20,981 nucleotides of DNA from Candidatus Tectimicrobiota bacterium (lineage in GTDB: Bacteria; JACPSX01), in assembly GCA_016193065.1 (NCBI GenBank), contig JACPSX010000086.1, positions 1-20,981 on the forward strand. The letters are read 5' to 3'. Every line of letters begins with the position of its first letter. The stretch's first letter is position 1. This document shows, one piece after another, positions 5,984 through 17,597 of the stretch. The notes under the pieces are model-generated. The model was not told the origin of the DNA and searched no databases. It worked only from the letters and a program-made list of their open reading frames with translations. The position numbers were made by a program, and so were the translations under genes.

Positions 5984-6327
5984 CACCTTTATCCTCCTGT
6001 GAACAAAATACCGCTTTGGTTTGAACTCCCGTCCCCCGGCACTCCGCGTGAAACAGAACCCCCGGCTGACGGTACGCAACTTAACCAATATAGCACTTCT
6101 TTTTTTTCTGTCCCCAAAAAGTTCTCCTAGACATTTGGAAGGTTCGTGGTTATCATACCGCCGCACGCCGTAAAAAGGCTTCGTCAGTTACCCGAGTCAA
6201 AACCGAAAGTGATCAAAATCAATGGGGGAACGCGGAGCCGCGTGAGCAGAGCGGAATAGCGTAGGGACGGGAAACTTACCCAGCGGAACGCGGTTCTGGG
6301 GGAAGCGGCACTGCCAGGAGGATCGTT
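5984..6327. other. Divergent intergenic region between cytochrome c and actA
   Basis: No gene is visible in this 344-bp stretch. It holds the ribosome-binding site and putative promoter of the minus-strand cytochrome gene and the candidate act promoter at 6128-6156. A perfect inverted repeat CGCGGAGCCGCG lies at 6231-6242. The nonamer GGAACGCGG occurs twice (6227-6235 and 6285-6293). The repeats lie in the presumed act leader and could be regulator or RNA-structure sites; nothing further can be assigned. Confidence 0.6.
6128..6156 (+). promoter_or_regulatory. Candidate promoter of the act operon
   Basis: TAGACA (6128-6133) and TATCAT (6151-6156) each match the sigma-70 consensus at 5 of 6 positions and are separated by the optimal 17 bp. 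They lie about 170 bp before the TTG start of actA, so the operon would have a leader of roughly 165 nt containing the GC-rich repeats at 6227-6293. Confidence 0.5.
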
Positions 6328-6839: not shown

Positions 6840-9785
6840 ATGGGGGGAATCGATCGACGGGATTTCTTGAAGGTCATCGGCATCGGTGGAGCTACTGCCG
6901 TATTGGCAGGCTGCTCCTCCCAGAAGCCGGAGAACGTCATCCCGTATCTAGTCCCTCCCGAGAACCCCCACCTGGGACTCTCCCTGTGGTACGCCACTAC
7001 TTGCCGGGAATGTCCGGCAGGTTGCGGCCTGCTGGTGCGCACCCAGGATGGCCGGGCTCTCAAGGTAGAAGGAAACCCTTCCCACCCTGTGAACCAGGGA
7101 CGCATCTGCGCCCGGGGGCAATCTTCCGTCCAGGGCCTTTACAACCCGGACCGGATTCGCCAGCCGCTGCGCAGAAAGGGCGACGGCCTCTTTGAGCCCA
7201 TCGACTGGGTCCAAGCCGAGAAAATAGTGGCGGAGCGTCTGGCGGCCCTGCTGGAAAAAGAGACTTCCTCCAGGGTGGCCTGCATAACGCCCCTGTTGAC
7301 GGGAACCCTTGACCGTCTCTTCGACGCCTGGCTTGCGGGACTCGGTTCCAAGCTGCGCTATTCTTACGAGGCTTTCTCCTATGAACCCCTGCGGGCCGCC
7401 AACCGGCTCACCTTTGATCAAGACGCGATTCCGGACTACGATCTCTCCCAGGCCCAGATGATTCTCTCCTTCGGCTGCGACTTTCTGGAGACCTGGGTTT
7501 CTCCGGTCTCCTTCAGCGCCCAGTACGCCCGCATGCGAACCTTCCGCAACGGCACCATGGGTACCTTCGTCCACGTGGGACCGCGCCTGTCCATGACCGG
7601 CGCCAATGCAGACGAGTGGATTCCGGCCAAGCCCGGCGCCGATCTGTACGTCGCCCTGGGGATGGTCCGCGAGATCCTGGCCCAGGGGAGCAGCCCGCTG
7701 CCCGCGGCGGAAAGAGAGATGATCGCCCGGCTGGCGGCGCCCTACGACCCCAAGACCGTGGAATCCCGCTCCGAGGTGCCGCCGGCGACCCTGAAGCGCC
7801 TGGCGCGCCAATTCGCCAAGGCCCGACCTGGGCTCGCCCTGGGCGGGGCCGTGGCCAGCAGCGGGCGCAACGCCACACCGACACAAGTCGCCATCAACCT
7901 CGTGAACTACGTGACCGGCAACGTGGGCCGTACGGTCCACTTCGGCTCTTCTTCGAGCCTGGGGCGACTTTCCACGTACCAGGACATGCTGGGACTTGTG
8001 GAGCGCATGAACCGAGGGGAAATTGAAGTGCTCTTCCTCTACCAGGTAAACCCCCTGTTTACGCTCCCTGAAAGCGCCGGGTTCCGGGAAGCAATAAAAA
8101 AAGTCCCCATGGTCGTGAGCCTGAGCAGTTTTCCTGATGAGACCACGGCCCAGGCCCACGTGGTGCTGCCGGACCACTCGCCTCTGGAGAGCTGGGGGGA
8201 TTTTTCACCCCGGCAAGGGGTCCACGGCCTTATTCAACCTGTAATGAAGCCCCTGTTCGACACCAAGGCGGCCGGAGACACGCTGCTGTCCGTCGCCCGC
8301 CACGTGGGAGGGAAACTGGTCCAGGCGCTCCCCCAGGAGTCTTTCTACGAAGCCTTGCGGGGGGACTGGAAGAAGATCTACCGCGCCTCGGCCTCCGCGG
8401 AGGACTTCGAGACCTTCTGGGAAAACGCGCTCCGCGCCGGAGGGGTGTGGAGCGAGCCGAAAAAGAGGGGTGTGCGTCTCTCTTCCCAGATCGCCCGGGT
8501 GGACTTCTCCGAGCCCTCCTTTGACGGAGACGATCCTGCCGCTCTGGCGCTCACCCTCTATCCGTCCATCAATCACTTCGACGGCCGGGGAGCCAATCGG
8601 CCCTGGCTTCAAGAGATCCCCGATCCGGTGATCCAGGCGGCCTGGGACAACTGGGTTGAGATCCACCCCGAAACGGCCAAAAAGCTGGGCATCACCTCCG
8701 GGGATCTGGTGGAAGTGAAGTCCTCTCACGGCCGCATCGAATTGCCCGTCTACCTTTACGAGTGGATCCGCCGGGATACGGTAGCCATCCCCATCGGTCA
8801 GGGGCACGAGGAGTTCGGGCGCTACGCCAAAGGGCGCGGGGCAAATCCCATCCGCCTGCTGGGCCCAAAAGCCGAAGGCGGCTCCGGAGGACTCCCCTGG
8901 CTTTCCGTGAAGGTGACCATGAAGAATACGGGAAAGCGCTACCTGCTCACCCCTGTTGCCGGCAGCAACACCCAGTATGGGCGGCCGATCTCCCTGGCGG
9001 TTTCCCTGTCGGATCTTTTGAAGGAGGAGCACCCCGAGAGCGAAGCCCATCCTTCCATGTACGCCCCGCACCCGCACCCCAAGCACCGCTGGGGGATGAC
9101 CATTGACCTGAACGCCTGCACGGGCTGCAGCTCCTGCGTGGCCGCCTGCTACGCCGAGAACAACCTGGGCATTGTGGGCAAAGAGGAGATGATGCGCGGG
9201 CGGGAGACCTCCTGGATCCGCCTGGAGCGCTTCATGGAGGGGAGGAGCCCGGAGAACCCGGACTTCCGGTTCTCCCCCATGCTTTGCCAGCACTGCGACA
9301 GCGCCCCCTGCGAGCCCGTCTGCCCCGTGTACGCCACCTACCACACCACCGAGGGGCTCAACGCCCAGATCTACAACCGCTGCGTGGGCACGCGCTACTG
9401 CGCCAACAACTGCCCCTACAAGGTGCGGCGGTTCAACTGGTTTACGTACCAATGGCCCGAACCCCTCAACCTGCAGCTCAACCCCGACGTCACGGTGCGG
9501 GAAAAGGGGGTCATGGAGAAGTGCACGTTCTGCGTGCAGAGAATCCGCAGGGTGGAAATCAAGGCCCAGGTGGAGGGGCGGGCGGTCCGCGATGGGGAGA
9601 TTCAGCCGGCCTGCGCCCAGGCCTGCCCGACTGAGGCCATCGTCTTCGGAGATCTGAACGACGCCGGCTCCGATGTGTCCAAGAGAGCGCGGGATCCCCG
9701 GCGCTACCGGGCCCTGGAAGAGATCAACACGCACCCGGCGATCACGTATTTGAAGAGGATCCGAGTGGATTCGGAAGAGGGCTAG
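6840..9785 (+). CDS. actB: ACIII subunit ActB, fused molybdopterin-oxidoreductase-like and Fe-S protein
   Basis: This 981-residue fusion has a twin-arginine signal (RRDFLK, residues 6-11) with a lipobox-like LAGC ending at Cys25. The N-terminal B1 domain (to about 730) resembles the catalytic subunit of the DMSO-reductase family and has an Fe-S-type motif Cys55-x2-Cys58-x3-Cys62-x27-Cys90. The C-terminal B2 domain (about 740-981) is a four-cluster ferredoxin. Cluster I uses Cys760/763/766/770, cluster II 816/819/824/828 and cluster IV 895/898/925/929. In the third motif Thr851 replaces a Cys (Cys848-x2-Thr-x2-Cys854-x3-Cys858), which predicts a [3Fe-4S] cluster as in known ActB. The clusters pass electrons from quinol to the haems of ActA/ActE. 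ATG 6840 follows GAGGGG and lies 11 bp after actA. Confidence 0.92.
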   Translation: MGGIDRRDFLKVIGIGGATAVLAGCSSQKPENVIPYLVPPENPHLGLSLWYATTCRECPAGCGLLVRTQDGRALKVEGNPSHPVNQGRICARGQSSVQGLYNPDRIRQPLRRKGDGLFEPIDWVQAEKIVAERLAALLEKETSSRVACITPLLTGTLDRLFDAWLAGLGSKLRYSYEAFSYEPLRAANRLTFDQDAIPDYDLSQAQMILSFGCDFLETWVSPVSFSAQYARMRTFRNGTMGTFVHVGPRLSMTGANADEWIPAKPGADLYVALGMVREILAQGSSPLPAAEREMIARLAAPYDPKTVESRSEVPPATLKRLARQFAKARPGLALGGAVASSGRNATPTQVAINLVNYVTGNVGRTVHFGSSSSLGRLSTYQDMLGLVERMNRGEIEVLFLYQVNPLFTLPESAGFREAIKKVPMVVSLSSFPDETTAQAHVVLPDHSPLESWGDFSPRQGVHGLIQPVMKPLFDTKAAGDTLLSVARHVGGKLVQALPQESFYEALRGDWKKIYRASASAEDFETFWENALRAGGVWSEPKKRGVRLSSQIARVDFSEPSFDGDDPAALALTLYPSINHFDGRGANRPWLQEIPDPVIQAAWDNWVEIHPETAKKLGITSGDLVEVKSSHGRIELPVYLYEWIRRDTVAIPIGQGHEEFGRYAKGRGANPIRLLGPKAEGGSGGLPWLSVKVTMKNTGKRYLLTPVAGSNTQYGRPISLAVSLSDLLKEEHPESEAHPSMYAPHPHPKHRWGMTIDLNACTGCSSCVAACYAENNLGIVGKEEMMRGRETSWIRLERFMEGRSPENPDFRFSPMLCQHCDSAPCEPVCPVYATYHTTEGLNAQIYNRCVGTRYCANNCPYKVRRFNWFTYQWPEPLNLQLNPDVTVREKGVMEKCTFCVQRIRRVEIKAQVEGRAVRDGEIQPACAQACPTEAIVFGDLNDAGSDVSKRARDPRRYRALEEINTHPAITYLKRIRVDSEEG

Positions 9786-9983
9786 GAGCGTGTCCGCAAC
9801 AGGAAAAGCGCCTTTTTCGGCGGTAGCAAAACGATTCCTTGAGGGTCGGTGGGCGATTCTCGGGCAGTGGAACGTGTCGAATAAGGCCGGAATCCCCTTC
9901 CTCTGTCATTCCGGCGAAGGCCGGAATCTAGGAGGAGAGAGGCTGGACCCCGGCTTGCGCCGGGGTGACGGCGGGAGGCTGAG
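9786..9983. other. actB-actC intergenic insertion region
   Basis: The other actB-F junctions overlap by 4, 14 and 4 bp, and actA-actB is 11 bp, but actB and actC are 198 bp apart. The gap contains the REP-like element at 9905-9969. A 12-bp direct repeat AAGGCCGGAATC occurs at 9883-9894 and 9917-9928. Short open frames here translate the palindrome and are not believable genes. The actC ribosome-binding site GGGAGG (9973-9978) lies just after the element. Confidence 0.75.
9905..9969. repeat. REP-like palindromic repeat element (65 bp)
   Basis: The element begins GTCA and ends TGAC. It contains two hairpins with 8-bp stems and 4-nt loops: ATTCCGGC (9908-9915) with GCCGGAAT (9920-9927), and ACCCCGGC (9947-9954) with GCCGGGGT (9959-9966). 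Translated in one frame it yields CHSGEGRN and DPGLRRGDG strings, which are familiar spurious peptides from dispersed GTCATTCC-type genomic repeats in many bacteria. It is probably one copy of a non-autonomous repeat family. Confidence 0.8.
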
Positions 9984-11303
9984 GTGACCCAGCTTACGTA
10001 TTCCCGGGTCAACCGGGACCTCATCAAGACCATGGAGCCCCCCAAGAAAAACTACTACCTGACCCTGGCGGGTCTCGTGGTCGTGGTGGGGACGGGACTT
10101 GCCGCCTGGTTGTACCAGATCTCCGTAGGGCTCGGGGTGAGCGGATTGAACCACCCGGTGGGCTGGGCGGTCTACATCACCAACTTTGTGTTCTGGGTGG
10201 GCATCGCCCACTCGGGGACGCTGATCTCGGCGATCCTGTTTTTGCTACGTTGCAAGTGGCGGACCTCCGTATACCGGGCCGCCGAGGCGATGACCGTATT
10301 TGCTTTGATGACGGCGGGCCTCTTCCCGCTCATCCACCTGGGGAGGCCGTGGTTGTTCTACTGGCTTCTCCCCTATCCGGACCGCGGGCTTTTGTGGCCC
10401 AACTTCCGCTCCCCCCTCATGTGGGATGTTTTCGCGGTGAGCACCTACCTCACGGTGAGTGTCATGTTCTTCATCACGGGCCTGGTCCCTGACGTGGCGG
10501 CCGTCCGGGATAAAGCCACTGGCCTGCGAAAGAAGATCTACAGTCTTCTGGCCCAGGGGTGGCAAGGGACGGACAACCAGTGGCGCCACTACTCCAGCGC
10601 TTATCTCTTTCTGGCGGCCTTTGCCACTCCCCTGGTGATCTCGGTCCACAGCGTGGTCTCCTGGGATTTCGCCATGTCCATCGTGCCGGGCTGGCACAGC
10701 ACGATCTTCGCCCCCTATTTCGTGGCCGGGGCGATCCATTCGGGGCTGGCCATGGTGCTCACGATCATGATCCCCCTGCGCAAGCTCATGAAACTCGAGG
10801 ACTACGTCACCGGAAAGCACCTGGAAAACCTGGCCAAGCTCATCATCGTCACGGGGCTTATCGTGGGCTACTCTTACATCGCGGAGTTTTTCGTGGCTTG
10901 GTACAGCCAGGTCCCCTACGAACAGGCGGCCTTCCAGTACCGGGCCTTCGGGGACTACAAGGTGCTCTTCTGGTTCATGGTCCTGTTCAACACCATCGCC
11001 CCCCTGTTCTTCTTCGCGAAGAAGTTCCGCACCAGCACGTTCTGGCTGCTGGCGATCGCCATCATGGTGAACATCGGCATGTGGCTGGAGCGGTTCGTGA
11101 TCATCGTGGGCTCCCTTGCCCACGAATTCATGCCGTTCACCTGGGGGCTTTACCGGATCCGGTTGCCCGAAGTGCTGATCACGATCGGCGGCTTCGGCTG
11201 GTTCTTCCTCCTGTTTCTGATCTTCGTCAAGATCCTGCCCGTGGTCTCCATCACGGAGATTAAGGAAGAGATCCGACACGAAGTCGAGGAGGGGAAGCCA
11301 TGA
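9984..11303 (+). CDS. actC: ACIII subunit ActC, NrfD/PsrC-like membrane protein
   Basis: ActC is the polytopic membrane subunit of the NrfD family that sits next to the Fe-S domain of ActB and carries a quinol-oxidation site. The 439-residue protein has about ten hydrophobic helices. Conserved-looking features include NFVFWVGIAHSGTLISAIL (helix 2-3 region), HLGRPWLFYWLLPYP, and a late WLERFVIIVGSL segment. The start is GTG 9984 with GGGAGG 5 bp upstream; ATG 10032 (MEPPKKNYY) is a possible alternative that would shorten the N terminus by 16 residues. Its 3' end overlaps actD by ATGA. The unusually long upstream gap contains a repeat element that could affect expression relative to actB. Confidence 0.9.
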   Translation: MTQLTYSRVNRDLIKTMEPPKKNYYLTLAGLVVVVGTGLAAWLYQISVGLGVSGLNHPVGWAVYITNFVFWVGIAHSGTLISAILFLLRCKWRTSVYRAAEAMTVFALMTAGLFPLIHLGRPWLFYWLLPYPDRGLLWPNFRSPLMWDVFAVSTYLTVSVMFFITGLVPDVAAVRDKATGLRKKIYSLLAQGWQGTDNQWRHYSSAYLFLAAFATPLVISVHSVVSWDFAMSIVPGWHSTIFAPYFVAGAIHSGLAMVLTIMIPLRKLMKLEDYVTGKHLENLAKLIIVTGLIVGYSYIAEFFVAWYSQVPYEQAAFQYRAFGDYKVLFWFMVLFNTIAPLFFFAKKFRTSTFWLLAIAIMVNIGMWLERFVIIVGSLAHEFMPFTWGLYRIRLPEVLITIGGFGWFFLLFLIFVKILPVVSITEIKEEIRHEVEEGKP

Positions 11304-11815
11304 GAAAGGCCGAACCGGGCGTGCTGGGGATCTTTGCGCGCCTGGAGCCGCTGCTGGAAGCCTGCAAAAGACTGCGGCGTGAGGGGGTTCAAAAGTTCCA
11401 GGTGATCACGCCGATCCCGGTGGAAGAGGTGCAGGAAATTCTGGAAAAACCCAGGAGCTCCGTCCGCCTCTTCGCGCTCATCGGCGGCATGCTGGGCATG
11501 GCCTCCGGATTCGCCCTGACGATCTGGACATCGCTGGACATCGGGTTGATCTCCGGGGGGAAGCCGATCATCTCCCTGCCCGCCTATGTAGTTATTGCTT
11601 TCGAGATGACGATCCTCTTTGGCGCCCTGGGAACCGTGCTGGGCCTTTTCTGGAACATCCGGCTGCCCCGCTTCACGCTGGACCCCTTTTACGACCCCAA
11701 GTTTTCCGAAGACCACTTCGGCCTCTGGATCCCCTGCGGAGCCTTGGACGCGCCCCGGGTGGAGGCTTCATTGCGCTCCCTGGGAGCCGAGGAGGTGCGT
11801 TTTGAAAAAGGCTAG
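11300..11815 (+). CDS. actD: ACIII subunit ActD (DUF3341)
   Basis: This small membrane subunit has 171 residues. An N-terminal soluble part (residues 1-50) contains LEACKRLRREGVQKFQVITP, typical of DUF3341. Two transmembrane helices follow (about 54-75 and 92-116), then a C-terminal soluble tail ending SLGAEEVRFEKG. DUF3341 proteins are ActD in ACIII operons; a structural or assembly role, not a redox role, is expected because no cofactor motif is present. The ATG at 11300 overlaps the actC stop by 4 bp, indicating translational coupling. Confidence 0.88.
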   Translation: MRKAEPGVLGIFARLEPLLEACKRLRREGVQKFQVITPIPVEEVQEILEKPRSSVRLFALIGGMLGMASGFALTIWTSLDIGLISGGKPIISLPAYVVIAFEMTILFGALGTVLGLFWNIRLPRFTLDPFYDPKFSEDHFGLWIPCGALDAPRVEASLRSLGAEEVRFEKG

Positions 11816-12299
11816 CTTCGCACTTCTGGTGGGATTCCTGATCTTTTGGCTGGGGGCGGCGGGACCGGCGCAGGGGTTTCCGTGGAGCAAGGACATGATC
11901 CGGCAGCCCTCCGTGAAGCCCCAGGAAAACCCTCGACCGGAGCCCGAAGGGTCCGTCCCCGTGGACGGGCGGGATCGCCCCATGAGCCGAGAAAAGGCAG
12001 GGCAGATCTTGCGCAACCCCGTCCAGACCACCGCAGATTCCGTTGAAAACGGCAAGAAACTCTACAACATCTACTGCGCGCTTTGTCACGGGCCCACGGC
12101 CACCGGGGGTGGGCCCGTTTCCCGGAAATTCGTCCCCCCTCCCAACTTGACGGATGATTTCTTCAAGAAGAGACCCGACGGCTTCCTCTTTGAGACGATC
12201 CGCAGCGGCGGGCCCGTCATGCCCGGCTACCGGGAGAGCCTTACGCCCAAGGAGCGCTGGGACATCGTGAACTATCTGAGGAGATTGCAAGGTCAATGA
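11802..12299 (+). CDS. actE: ACIII subunit ActE, monohaem cytochrome c
   Basis: This 165-residue cytochrome has a signal peptide (MKKASFALLVGFLIFWLGAA, cleavage around AQG) and a Pro-rich stretch. The class I cytochrome c domain has haem motif CALCH (Cys92, Cys95, His96) and a probable distal ligand Met140 in GGPVMPGY. It should collect electrons from the complex for a downstream carrier or oxidase. TTG 11802 is chosen as the start because GAGGAGGT lies 6-7 bp upstream and the signal peptide begins exactly there. No in-frame ATG precedes the signal helix at a sensible place. The gene overlaps the end of actD by 14 bp and the start of actF by 4 bp. Confidence 0.88.
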   Translation: MKKASFALLVGFLIFWLGAAGPAQGFPWSKDMIRQPSVKPQENPRPEPEGSVPVDGRDRPMSREKAGQILRNPVQTTADSVENGKKLYNIYCALCHGPTATGGGPVSRKFVPPPNLTDDFFKKRPDGFLFETIRSGGPVMPGYRESLTPKERWDIVNYLRRLQGQ

Positions 12300-13534
12300 T
12301 GGCACCGCAAGCGCCTGCTCAACCCCTGTCGGAGAGTCTGCCGGAGACGCGCCGCCTGCGTTCTTTTCTCTGGGTGTTGCTGATCCTGGGTGCGGCGGCA
12401 TTCCTGATCGGGGCGCTGGGCGCAAGCCCCCAACGCGCCTGGCAAACCTACCTGGTCAACTTTCTCTTCTGGTCCGGGATCGCCCAGGCCGGCATCGTCT
12501 TTTCCGCCGCGTACCGTCTCACCAACGCCCACTGGGGGGAATCCATGCGCCGGCTGGCCGAGGGAATGGCGGGGGTCTTGCCCGTATCTTTCGTCCTCTT
12601 TCTGCTCCTGTTCTTCGGTCGTTCCTTTCTCTTCCCATGGATCGAAACCTCGGCCCACGGCAAGGAATCCTGGCTCAACTTCCCCTTTCTGTTCGCCCGG
12701 GACGGAATCAGCCTGATCATGCTCTACGGGGTGAGCTTCGTTTACCTCTACTACACCCTGCGCCCGATTGCGGGAGAAAGATTCGAAGGGCGGGGAACCC
12801 CCTCCGGCCTGCATCGGTTCCTCATCCGGGGCTGGCAAGGCTTGAGCGGGGAGCGGGCCCGCAGTGAGCGGGTCCTGAGAAGCCTGGCAGTGGCCGTCGT
12901 CCTCACCTATGCGGCCGTATACACCTTGCTGGCCTTCGACCTGGTCATGTCCCTGGAACCCCAGTGGTACAGTACCCTGTTCGGGGCTTACTTCTTCATG
13001 GGGAACTTCTACCTGGGCCTGGCGTTCCTGGGCGTCACGACTATCCTGGTGCGCAAATCCGCACGGCTGGCGTCCCAACTCCCGTCCCGCAACTTCTGGG
13101 ACCTCGGCAAGCTCATGCTGGCCTTCGGCATGGTCACGGGGGACTTCTTCTTCTCCCAGTTCCTAGTGATCTGGTACGGAAACCTCCCCGAAGAGATCAC
13201 CTTCGTGATCCACCGCACCAAAGACATGCCCTGGGCGACTCTGTCTTGGATCGTGCTCTTCGGCGGGTATCTGGGACCCGTTCTCCTCCTCTTCAGCCGC
13301 GCCGTCAAGCTGCACGCCCGCAGCTTCGTCCTGGTGAGCCTCCTGGTCCTGGTCGTCATGTGGATCGAGCGCTACCTGCTCGTGGTGCCTTCCCTCTGGC
13401 ACGAGAAGTCGCTGCCGCTGGGATGGATCGAAGTGCTGGTGACGGCGGGATTCGCGGGCGCGATGGGTCTCAGCGTTCTGGAGTTCTGGCGCCGCCTGCC
13501 CTTCTTTTTCCCCTCCTCCGGTTCCAAGCCTTAG
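12296..13534 (+). CDS. actF: ACIII subunit ActF, NrfD-like membrane protein
   Basis: This second polytopic subunit, 412 residues with about ten helices, is distantly related to ActC. A matching segment (NFLFWSGIAQAGIVFSAA) aligns by eye with ActC NFVFWVGIAHSGTLISAI, but the His is replaced by Gln. A late MWIERYLLVVPSLWHE string also parallels ActC. The start is ATG 12296 overlapping the actE stop (ATGA); a second ATG follows at once at 12299. It is the last gene of the operon. No actG and no cytochrome oxidase genes follow, and no convincing terminator is seen before tadA, which begins 54 bp later. Confidence 0.88.
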   Translation: MMAPQAPAQPLSESLPETRRLRSFLWVLLILGAAAFLIGALGASPQRAWQTYLVNFLFWSGIAQAGIVFSAAYRLTNAHWGESMRRLAEGMAGVLPVSFVLFLLLFFGRSFLFPWIETSAHGKESWLNFPFLFARDGISLIMLYGVSFVYLYYTLRPIAGERFEGRGTPSGLHRFLIRGWQGLSGERARSERVLRSLAVAVVLTYAAVYTLLAFDLVMSLEPQWYSTLFGAYFFMGNFYLGLAFLGVTTILVRKSARLASQLPSRNFWDLGKLMLAFGMVTGDFFFSQFLVIWYGNLPEEITFVIHRTKDMPWATLSWIVLFGGYLGPVLLLFSRAVKLHARSFVLVSLLVLVVMWIERYLLVVPSLWHEKSLPLGWIEVLVTAGFAGAMGLSVLEFWRRLPFFFPSSGSKP

Positions 13535-13588: not shown

Positions 13589-14062
13589 ATGGACGAGGAC
13601 AGTCGCTACATGGAGATGGCCCTGGAAGAAGCCCGGCAGGCCTTGGCCCAGGGCGAGGTGCCGGTCGGAGCCGTCGCTGTTCTGGACGGGTCCGTGGTGG
13701 GCAGGGGCCACAATCGTCCCATCGGCCTTTGCGACCCCACGGCCCATGCGGAGATTCAGGCACTGCGCCAGGCCGCGCACAGGCTCGGGAGTCACCGGCT
13801 CCCCGGGAGCACTCTTTACGTCACCCTGGAGCCCTGCCTGCTGTGCGCGGGAGCGCTGATCCAGGCCCGGGTCCGCCGCCTGGTCTTCGGCGCCAGTGAT
13901 GCGAAGGCAGGGGCCGTGGTTTCTCTTTACCGGGCACTGGAGGACGCCCGCCTGAACCATCAGGTGGAAGTGACCTCCGGGGTTCTGGCGGTTCAGGCGG
14001 AGATTCTCCTGAAGGATTTTTTCGCTGCCAAGCGCCGCACCGGGGATCGGGGATTGCTATAA
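13589..14062 (+). CDS. tadA: tRNA-specific adenosine deaminase TadA
   Basis: TadA deaminates A34 to inosine in tRNA-Arg(ACG), which is encoded at 4654-4730. The 157-residue protein has the cytidine-deaminase fold with zinc and catalytic motif His53-Ala-Glu55 and the second zinc motif Pro82-Cys83-x2-Cys86 (EPCLLCAGAL). GEVPVGAVAV near the N terminus and FGASDAKAGAV are typical of TadA. ATG 13589 is preceded by a modest CGGGGA site. A TATACT -10-like hexamer at 13563-13568 lacks a good -35, so a promoter here is uncertain and some transcription may come from the act operon. tRNA-Ser(CGA) begins 14 bp after the stop. Confidence 0.95.
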   Translation: MDEDSRYMEMALEEARQALAQGEVPVGAVAVLDGSVVGRGHNRPIGLCDPTAHAEIQALRQAAHRLGSHRLPGSTLYVTLEPCLLCAGALIQARVRRLVFGASDAKAGAVVSLYRALEDARLNHQVEVTSGVLAVQAEILLKDFFAAKRRTGDRGLL

Positions 14063-14774: not shown

Positions 14775-14819
14775 CTCTGGATTCACGTCCGTGGAATCAG
14801 CAAACCAATTTGGGAAGCG

Positions 14820-16523
14820 ATGACCTATCAGGTGACGGCGCGCCGCTGGCGCCCGCAGACATTTACCGAGATTATTGGCCAGGAGCACGTGAGCCGCACG
14901 CTGCGTAACGCTCTGGAGATGGGCAGGATTGCCCACGCCTATCTGTTCTCGGGGTCCCGGGGGGTGGGCAAGACCACCACAGCCCGGGTCCTGGCCAAAG
15001 CTCTCAACTGCTCCGGAGGGCCTCGTCCGGACCCTTGCAACCGCTGCAATTCCTGCCAGGAGATCACCGCCGGCACGGCTCTGGATGTGATTGAGATTGA
15101 TGGGGCCTCGAACCGGGGAATCGACCAGATCCGGGAGCTCCGGGAAACGGTGCACTACGTTCCCACCCGGGGCACCTACAAAGTCTACATTATCGACGAA
15201 GTCCACATGCTCACCAAGGAGGCCTTCAATGCCCTCTTGAAGACCCTGGAGGAGCCCCCCCCTCATGTGATCTTCATCTTCGCCACCACCGAGCAGTCCC
15301 GGATACCCCCCACGATCCTGTCGCGCTGCCAGTGCTACGAGTTCAAGCAACTGCCCCAGGCGCTGATTGCCGAGCAACTCGCACAGATTGCTGGAAAAGA
15401 ACAGATCCAGATCTCTCCCCATAACCTGCAACTGCTGGCCAAAATGGCCCGGGGGAGCATGCGGGACGCCCAGAGTCTCTTCGATCAGGTGGTGGCCTTC
15501 TGCGGCCCGGTCGTCGGCGAGGACCACGTTCAGACCCTCCTGGGGGTGGTACGGACCGACTCACTGCGAGCCTGCCTGGATGCCGTGAGCAGCCGGAACG
15601 CGCAAGCCCTGCTGGAAACCCTGCACGAGGTCGTGCAGCGGGGCACCAACCCGCTGGCCCTCTGTCAGGAGATCCTGGAACAGTTCCGCCACCTGCTCGT
15701 GATCCAAAAAGTTCCGGACCATGCCCATCTCGTCGACGTCTCCCCGAGCCATCTCGAAGACCTGAGACGCCTGGCAGGCCGGTTTTCCGGGGAGGAACTA
15801 CACCTGTTCTGTCGCCTTCTCTCCCAGGCCGAGGCGGAGATGCGGCGCTCCAGTGACCCCCTTCTCCACCTGGAAGTAGGCCTCCTGCGCCTGATTCATG
15901 TGAAGCCTCTGGCCTCTCTGGACGAGCTCGTGGCGCGGCTCGACCGCATGGAGGAACGCCTCAGGGGCGGCGCAGAGACGCCCCCGGGTACCCACCCGGT
16001 GGGTGCCCCGGCAGGAAAAAATCGGCCGCCCGAACGCCTCTTTCCAGAAACGGCAAATCCCGGCCGGCCGGCCGAGAGCTCCCCGCCCCTGAAATTGCCG
16101 AAGGGTCCCACGGAGAAACCGAACCCCAGGGTAGCGGAAACACTCCCCTTGGCAGAACTCTGGCAGGAGATCGTGAACCGCTCGGTGGCCCGGAAACCTC
16201 TGCTGGGAACTTATCTCGAACCGGGATCTCTCCTGGAGAAGGAAGCGCATGTTCTGACGGTGGGCTACGCCAAGGCCGACGCTCTGCACCGGGAAAAAGT
16301 TCAGGAAGGGGAGAACCGGCAGATACTCGAGGAGGCAGCCTCCGAGGTTCTGGGACGCCGGGTGCAGCTTCGCCTGCGCGAGCTTCCCTTGCAGGCTCCG
16401 GATGTGGACCCCGCCCCTGCGCAGCCGGCCGAGGAAGCCAGGAAAGAAACGGAACCCCAGCGGGCTACGGACATTGTCCAGGAGGCCCTCGAACTGTTTA
16501 ACGGCACCATTGTCTTACAGTAG
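14820..16523 (+). CDS. dnaX: DNA polymerase III subunit gamma/tau
   Basis: This is the clamp-loader ATPase of the replicase. The 567-residue protein starts with MTYQVTARRWRPQTF, the classic DnaX N terminus. It has Walker A GSRGVGKT (45-52), a zinc module (Cys64, Cys73, Cys76, Cys79), DEVH (126-129, Walker B) and the SRC sensor (168-170). A Pro-rich linker covers about 385-440, and the C-terminal tau domain contacts the polymerase. ATG 14820 is chosen over the GTG at 14766, which lies inside the SRP RNA. An A6 run (16016-16021) in the linker could allow slippage to a shorter gamma-like product. ebfC and recR follow, the usual bacterial order. Confidence 0.96.
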   Translation: MTYQVTARRWRPQTFTEIIGQEHVSRTLRNALEMGRIAHAYLFSGSRGVGKTTTARVLAKALNCSGGPRPDPCNRCNSCQEITAGTALDVIEIDGASNRGIDQIRELRETVHYVPTRGTYKVYIIDEVHMLTKEAFNALLKTLEEPPPHVIFIFATTEQSRIPPTILSRCQCYEFKQLPQALIAEQLAQIAGKEQIQISPHNLQLLAKMARGSMRDAQSLFDQVVAFCGPVVGEDHVQTLLGVVRTDSLRACLDAVSSRNAQALLETLHEVVQRGTNPLALCQEILEQFRHLLVIQKVPDHAHLVDVSPSHLEDLRRLAGRFSGEELHLFCRLLSQAEAEMRRSSDPLLHLEVGLLRLIHVKPLASLDELVARLDRMEERLRGGAETPPGTHPVGAPAGKNRPPERLFPETANPGRPAESSPPLKLPKGPTEKPNPRVAETLPLAELWQEIVNRSVARKPLLGTYLEPGSLLEKEAHVLTVGYAKADALHREKVQEGENRQILEEAASEVLGRRVQLRLRELPLQAPDVDPAPAQPAEEARKETEPQRATDIVQEALELFNGTIVLQ

Positions 16524-16576: not shown

Positions 16577-16897
16577 ATGTCCAAGATGTTGGGCAACCTG
16601 ATGAAGCAGGCCCAAAAGATGCAGGAGCAAGTGGCCCAGCTCCAAAAGGAGCTGGCCAATCGGACCATCGAGGCCACGGCCGGCGGCGGGATGGTCAAGG
16701 TGGTCGCCAACGGCAACCAGCAGGTGGTCTCCGTAAAAATCGACCCTACCGTTGTCGACCCGGCCGAGATCGAGATGCTTGAGGATCTGGTGGTGGCTGC
16801 GGTCAACGAGGCACTGCGCAAGGCTCAGGAGATGACCGCCGAGGAAGTCTCCAAGCTCACCGGAGGGTTGAAGATCCCAGGGCTCTTCGGGGCCTAG
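16577..16897 (+). CDS. ebfC: YbaB/EbfC nucleoid-associated protein
   Basis: This small DNA-binding protein has 106 residues. It begins MSKMLGNLMKQAQKMQEQVAQLQ, the helical N terminus of the family, followed by the beta-sheet segment MVKVVANGNQQVVSVKIDP and a C-terminal helix with LEDLVVAAVNEAL. YbaB/EbfC dimers bind DNA and are almost always encoded between dnaX and recR. ATG 16577 has GGGAGG upstream. The leader contains the palindrome CCTGCCATGGCAGG (16534-16547). A CCTCC at about 16548 can pair with the GGAGG ribosome-binding site, so translation may depend on ribosomes arriving from dnaX. Confidence 0.95.
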   Translation: MSKMLGNLMKQAQKMQEQVAQLQKELANRTIEATAGGGMVKVVANGNQQVVSVKIDPTVVDPAEIEMLEDLVVAAVNEALRKAQEMTAEEVSKLTGGLKIPGLFGA

Positions 16898-16913: not shown

Positions 16914-17510
16914 ATGATCGGTCCCAAGGCCCTCGACAACCTGGTTCAGGAACTCCTCAGGCTTCCTGGCGTCGGCCCCAAGACGGCGCAGCGCCTGGCC
17001 TTTCATTTGCTCAAGCGCCCCAAAGCCGAGGCGGAGGCACTGGCTCAGGCTGTGGTTAATCTCAAGGAAAAAGTCGTGCACTGCTCCGTGTGCTGCGGCA
17101 TCACCGAACAGGATCCCTGCCCCATCTGCCGGAGCCCCGAGCGGAATCCGGCTCTCATCTGCGTCGTGTAAGAGCCCAACGATCTCTTCGCCCTGGAGAA
17201 GTCCGGGGAATATCGGGGGAAATACCACGTCCTTATGGGTGCCCTTTCTCCCTTGGACGGGATCGGCCCGCAGGATCTGCGCATCGACCCCTTGCTCAAC
17301 CGTCTCCGGGACGGCGGCGTGGAGGAAGTCATCATTGCCACCAACCCCAACATGGAAGGGGAAGCCACCGCTCTTTATCTCGCCAAGCTCATCAAGCCCC
17401 TCGGCATCAAGGTGACCCGGATCGCCCACGGTCTCCCCATGGGAGGGGATCTGGAATATGCCGACGAAGTGACCCTGGCCAAGTCTCTGCAGGGACGCAG
17501 GGAGATCTAA
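16914..17510 (+). pseudogene. recR: Recombination mediator RecR, interrupted by an in-frame TAA
   Basis: RecR works with RecO/RecF to load RecA at gaps. Read through, the frame is 199 codons including the stops, the normal RecR length. It has the HhH region LPGVGPKTAQRLAFHLL (17-33), a four-Cys zinc finger (Cys57, Cys60, Cys69, Cys72), and a TOPRIM domain with [24 protein letters not shown] and [10 protein letters not shown]. Codon 86 is TAA (17169-17171) between CVV and [10 protein letters not shown]. Family members have Glu there (E. coli CVVESPAD), so one base (GAA to TAA) explains it. No frameshift or other damage is visible. The result is an 85-residue fragment, with a possible restart at ATG 17235. 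It could be a recent null mutation, a sequencing or assembly error, or readthrough. Confidence 0.88.
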
Positions 17511-17569: not shown

Positions 17570-17597
17570 TTGACAGGAAGCGCGGCAGGGCTATAAT
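17570..17597 (+). promoter_or_regulatory. Consensus sigma-70 promoter of tRNA-Asn
   Basis: TTGACA (17570-17575) and TATAAT (17592-17597) are perfect hexamers with a 16-bp spacer, the same architecture as the tRNA-Leu promoter at 2153. The tRNA starts 66 bp after the -10, giving a leader of about 58 nt. Confidence 0.85.

Follow-up and report, generated by a model that had tools for sequence, protein, structure and literature searches.

The recR gene of this draft Candidatus Tectimicrobiota genome carries a single in-frame TAA at codon 86, in a frame that otherwise looks like that of a working gene. We give slightly better than an even chance to the reading that most cells do not carry the TAA, and that it reached the consensus through an error in sequencing or assembly or from a minor strain allele. 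A genuine and very recent nonsense mutation, giving a strain without RecFOR gap repair, is nearly as likely, falling a little short of an even chance; the ranking of these two readings is a judgement and not a measurement. The finding is ordinary in kind, and as it stands the TAA in recR matters little. Should the allele be real and common in the population, it would mark a lineage naturally deficient in RecFOR whose recO and recF are still intact, offering a useful view of pathway loss at an early stage. Should it be an error, it would serve as a caution against inferring gene loss from one draft genome.

The interrupted recR frame

The window, by which we mean the whole stretch of 20,981 nucleotides analyzed, is one contig (C34) of a 2.90-Mb draft that consists of 294 contigs and is 86.3% complete. 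Its recR frame spans 198 codons from the ATG at 16914 to a terminal TAA, and the letters at 17166-17174 read GTG TAA GAG. The interruption reported in the initial annotation was confirmed by the sequence, by the translation and by a match to TIGR00615 that falls into two parts, with the N and C parts of recR forming consecutive stretches of the one model (Table 1). With the TAA taken as Glu, the protein scored 271.1 bits against a cut-off of 162.55, and the score was 268.9 bits when recR was searched from DNA. Read through, the product carries all the RecR domains (PF21176, PF02132, PF13662 and PF21175); the uninterrupted frame expected of RecR is broken by the TAA. Upstream of recR lie dnaX and ybaB, in the gene order familiar from E. 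coli.

Table 1. Coordinates in the window of recR, its in-frame TAA and the upstream genes of the cluster
Feature	Position	Strand	Content and basis
dnaX (DNA polymerase III gamma/tau), first of dnaX-ybaB-recR cluster	14817..16523	+	TIGR02397, 455 bits, above cut-off
ybaB/ebfC nucleoid-associated protein	16577..16897	+	PF02575 and TIGR00103, above cut-off
recR, N part	16914..17168	+	Helix-hairpin-helix and Cys4 zinc finger, 85 codons; TIGR00615 positions 4-85, 91.6 bits; PF21176, PF02132
In-frame TAA, codon 86	17169..17171	+	Sequence and translation
recR, C part	17172..17510	+	TOPRIM and C-terminal domains, 112 codons, own TAA 17508-17510; TIGR00615 positions 87-196, 162.4 bits

Two further features of the window were observed. 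A perfect sigma-70 consensus promoter (TTGACA, 16 nt, TATAAT; 12/12 matches) lies at 17570-17597, between recR and a tRNA-Asn gene. The cluster at 6849-13531 resembles alternative complex III and includes a fused molybdopterin-like and iron-sulfur protein, whose QrcB-like and QrcC-like halves share a single frame, together with a DsrP/QrcD-like membrane protein and cytochromes.

If the TAA is real, translation would end after the zinc finger, leaving an 85-residue fragment with the helix-hairpin-helix and the zinc finger but no TOPRIM. The TOPRIM domain of RecR binds RecO and RecF (PMC3510498), and since the fragment lacks it, a null is the expected outcome. The Pfam Toprim_4 match spans 82-171 of the product, so that the TAA sits near its start, as might suit a split RecR, with each half made as a separate protein and the division close to the domain border. 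We regard this as the least probable of the readings considered, with next to no chance of being correct. The first ATG, GTG or TTG past the TAA is the ATG at 17235, 21 codons on, and a product starting there would lack Asp90, a residue invariant in 68 relatives, as well as the first strand of TOPRIM. In addition, there was no split recR among those listed in the other genomes searched.

Codon 86 and the state of the remaining gene

The stop had been placed exactly at the conserved TOPRIM glutamate. The site does match that glutamate by alignment to the DnaG motif, but the residue is variable in RecR. Among 109 relatives, position 86 is Glu in 75, Gln in 31 and Ala in 3 (codons GAG 51, GAA 24, CAA 19, CAG 12, GCC 2 and GCT 1); after sequences 90% alike were dropped, the counts were Glu 59, Gln 6 and Ala 3 (n = 68). 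Glu was found in all the nearest relatives, and the solved RecR 3vdp has Ser at the corresponding position. Judged from these sequences, RecR has no strict need for Glu at this position, with Gln, Ala and Ser tolerated. The initial annotation also took the lesion for a single substitution of GAA or GAG. This holds for GAA, and would hold for CAA, where one change suffices to give TAA, but not for GAG, where two are needed.

Past the TAA the gene is fully constrained in appearance. Only one of 32 near-invariant columns departs (A191S), no more than intact relatives show, and recR ranks 48 of 69 for identity after versus before the TAA. Codon usage in this part is strongly gene-like. A 390-kb sample of the draft contained 321 gene-like segments that are preceded by a stop, and of these the one in recR had the strongest coding signal between that stop and its first start codon, beyond what chance would give. 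The description of the remaining 112 codons as intact and RecR-like was borne out by the TIGR00615 match and by the lack of decay relative to other recR genes, and a decayed pseudogene was rejected because no conserved residues were lost after the TAA beyond what is seen in intact relatives. The partner genes recO and recF are present and free of stops.

The absence of decay past the TAA indicates that the change is either recent or not real. The constrained remainder, its codon usage and the intact partners all argue for an error or a minor allele; nevertheless, a recent true mutation accounts just as well for an intact remainder. For such a mutation, the lack of decay in recR, recO and recF means that the change must be very recent. 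The genuine null draws support from the finding that the TAA lies in the sole recR of the draft: protein, family and DNA searches, a check put forward with the initial annotation, returned no second recR in the 86.3%-complete assembly, and no strain-variant contig was found in the draft. Deletion of recR is tolerated in Thermus thermophilus (PMC11143384), and some near-complete genomes gave no recR match, both of which also favor a genuine null. Against it, nearly all of the genomes examined have retained RecR.

Reading of TAA as a sense codon

Full-length RecR would be made if a suppressor tRNA or a changed code allowed the TAA to be decoded, and the C part is indeed as conserved as in intact relatives. 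We consider this very unlikely. TAA is the terminal stop of 74 of the 314 sampled genes, recR included, for which reason a code change is disfavored. The same conclusion had been drawn earlier from two genes in the window, which were correctly described as ending in TAA (2834-2836 and 14060-14062). There was no tRNA with a UUA anticodon among the tRNAs found in the draft, which is 86.3% complete. Less likely still in our estimation would be a natural ochre readthrough that controls how much full-length RecR is made, the inserted residue falling at a TOPRIM position where several amino acids are tolerated. The draft encodes the selenocysteine factor SelB, but the selenocysteine system reads TGA and not TAA, so the TAA in recR is not explained by selenocysteine. 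Of the four explanations originally listed (recent null, error, polymorphism and readthrough), the best readings were among them as error or minor allele and as recent null, while readthrough has become unlikely, given that TAA is an ordinary stop and that no UUA tRNA was among those found in the incomplete draft.

An in-frame TGA was observed on another contig (L179, G000:C39; 2379-2381, +) at the expected redox Cys of an OsmC-like protein (GIGF*LLTQ), which is probably a selenoprotein. An OsmC-like selenoprotein family has already been reported (PMC1088965). The predicted hairpin past this TGA was no stronger than in shuffled sequences, and there was no clear tRNA-Sec in the incomplete draft, where the best match was a tRNA called Trp by ARAGORN.

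Other lesions and recR in other genomes

If the TAA is an error or a minor allele, the consensus of this metagenome-like draft assembly would hold an isolated one-base nonsense change, and the reads would carry a sense codon at codon 86. The fragmentation and incompleteness of the assembly favor this reading, as does a second lesion encountered in a 390-kb sample (approximately 13% of the genome) that was scanned with limited sensitivity. On the minus strand of another contig (L177, G000:C37), cofD (2-phospho-L-lactate transferase) has an apparent frameshift with a few codons lost at approximately 13,130-13,175; the match to TIGR01819 starts in one frame, and its positions from 51 on fall in another, with the break at approximately 13,170. 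Isolated lesions thus occur in the draft assembly, by error or in nature. Counting against an error, no convincing nonsense interruption other than that in recR was found in the 390 kb, which suggests that the assembly is not generally error-ridden. Since the window was picked for its stop and the sensitivity of the scan was limited, these counts do not give an unbiased rate. The scan also spoke against general decay of the genome: besides the cofD frameshift, its strongest other candidates were L123, which proved to be two ordinary neighboring sugar-nucleotide enzymes, L132, two unrelated neighboring genes, and L179, the probable selenocysteine codon.

Comparison with recR of other genomes, also proposed at the outset, revealed no stop in any of the approximately 280 genes listed (from 56 genomes, from 76 genomes and from the approximately 150 listed of 180 genomes). 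That RecR is nearly universal and unbroken among these genes favors an error or minor allele. A search of the phylum returned this genome only and so offered no close relatives for a polymorphism comparison; the best named relatives, at approximately 65% identity or less, are Rokubacteria, Nitrospinota and Nitrospirae MAGs.

A similar case was found in one of 80 MAGs of another collection, where recR of Bacillota bacterium RYN_353 (L109) has a lone TAG at 6274-6276, and this too is in favor of an error or minor allele. As in the present gene, there is a single stop and the gene is otherwise intact, whereas the stop is TAG, at another codon (approximately query position 101) and in another lineage. 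Compared with RecR itself (TIGR00615), the recombination mediator of the RecFOR pathway, the gene has the same order of helix-hairpin-helix, Cys4 zinc finger, TOPRIM and RecR_C, the dnaX-ybaB-recR gene order and identity of up to approximately 65% to relatives from Rokubacteria, Nitrospinota and others, and it differs by the one in-frame TAA at codon 86.
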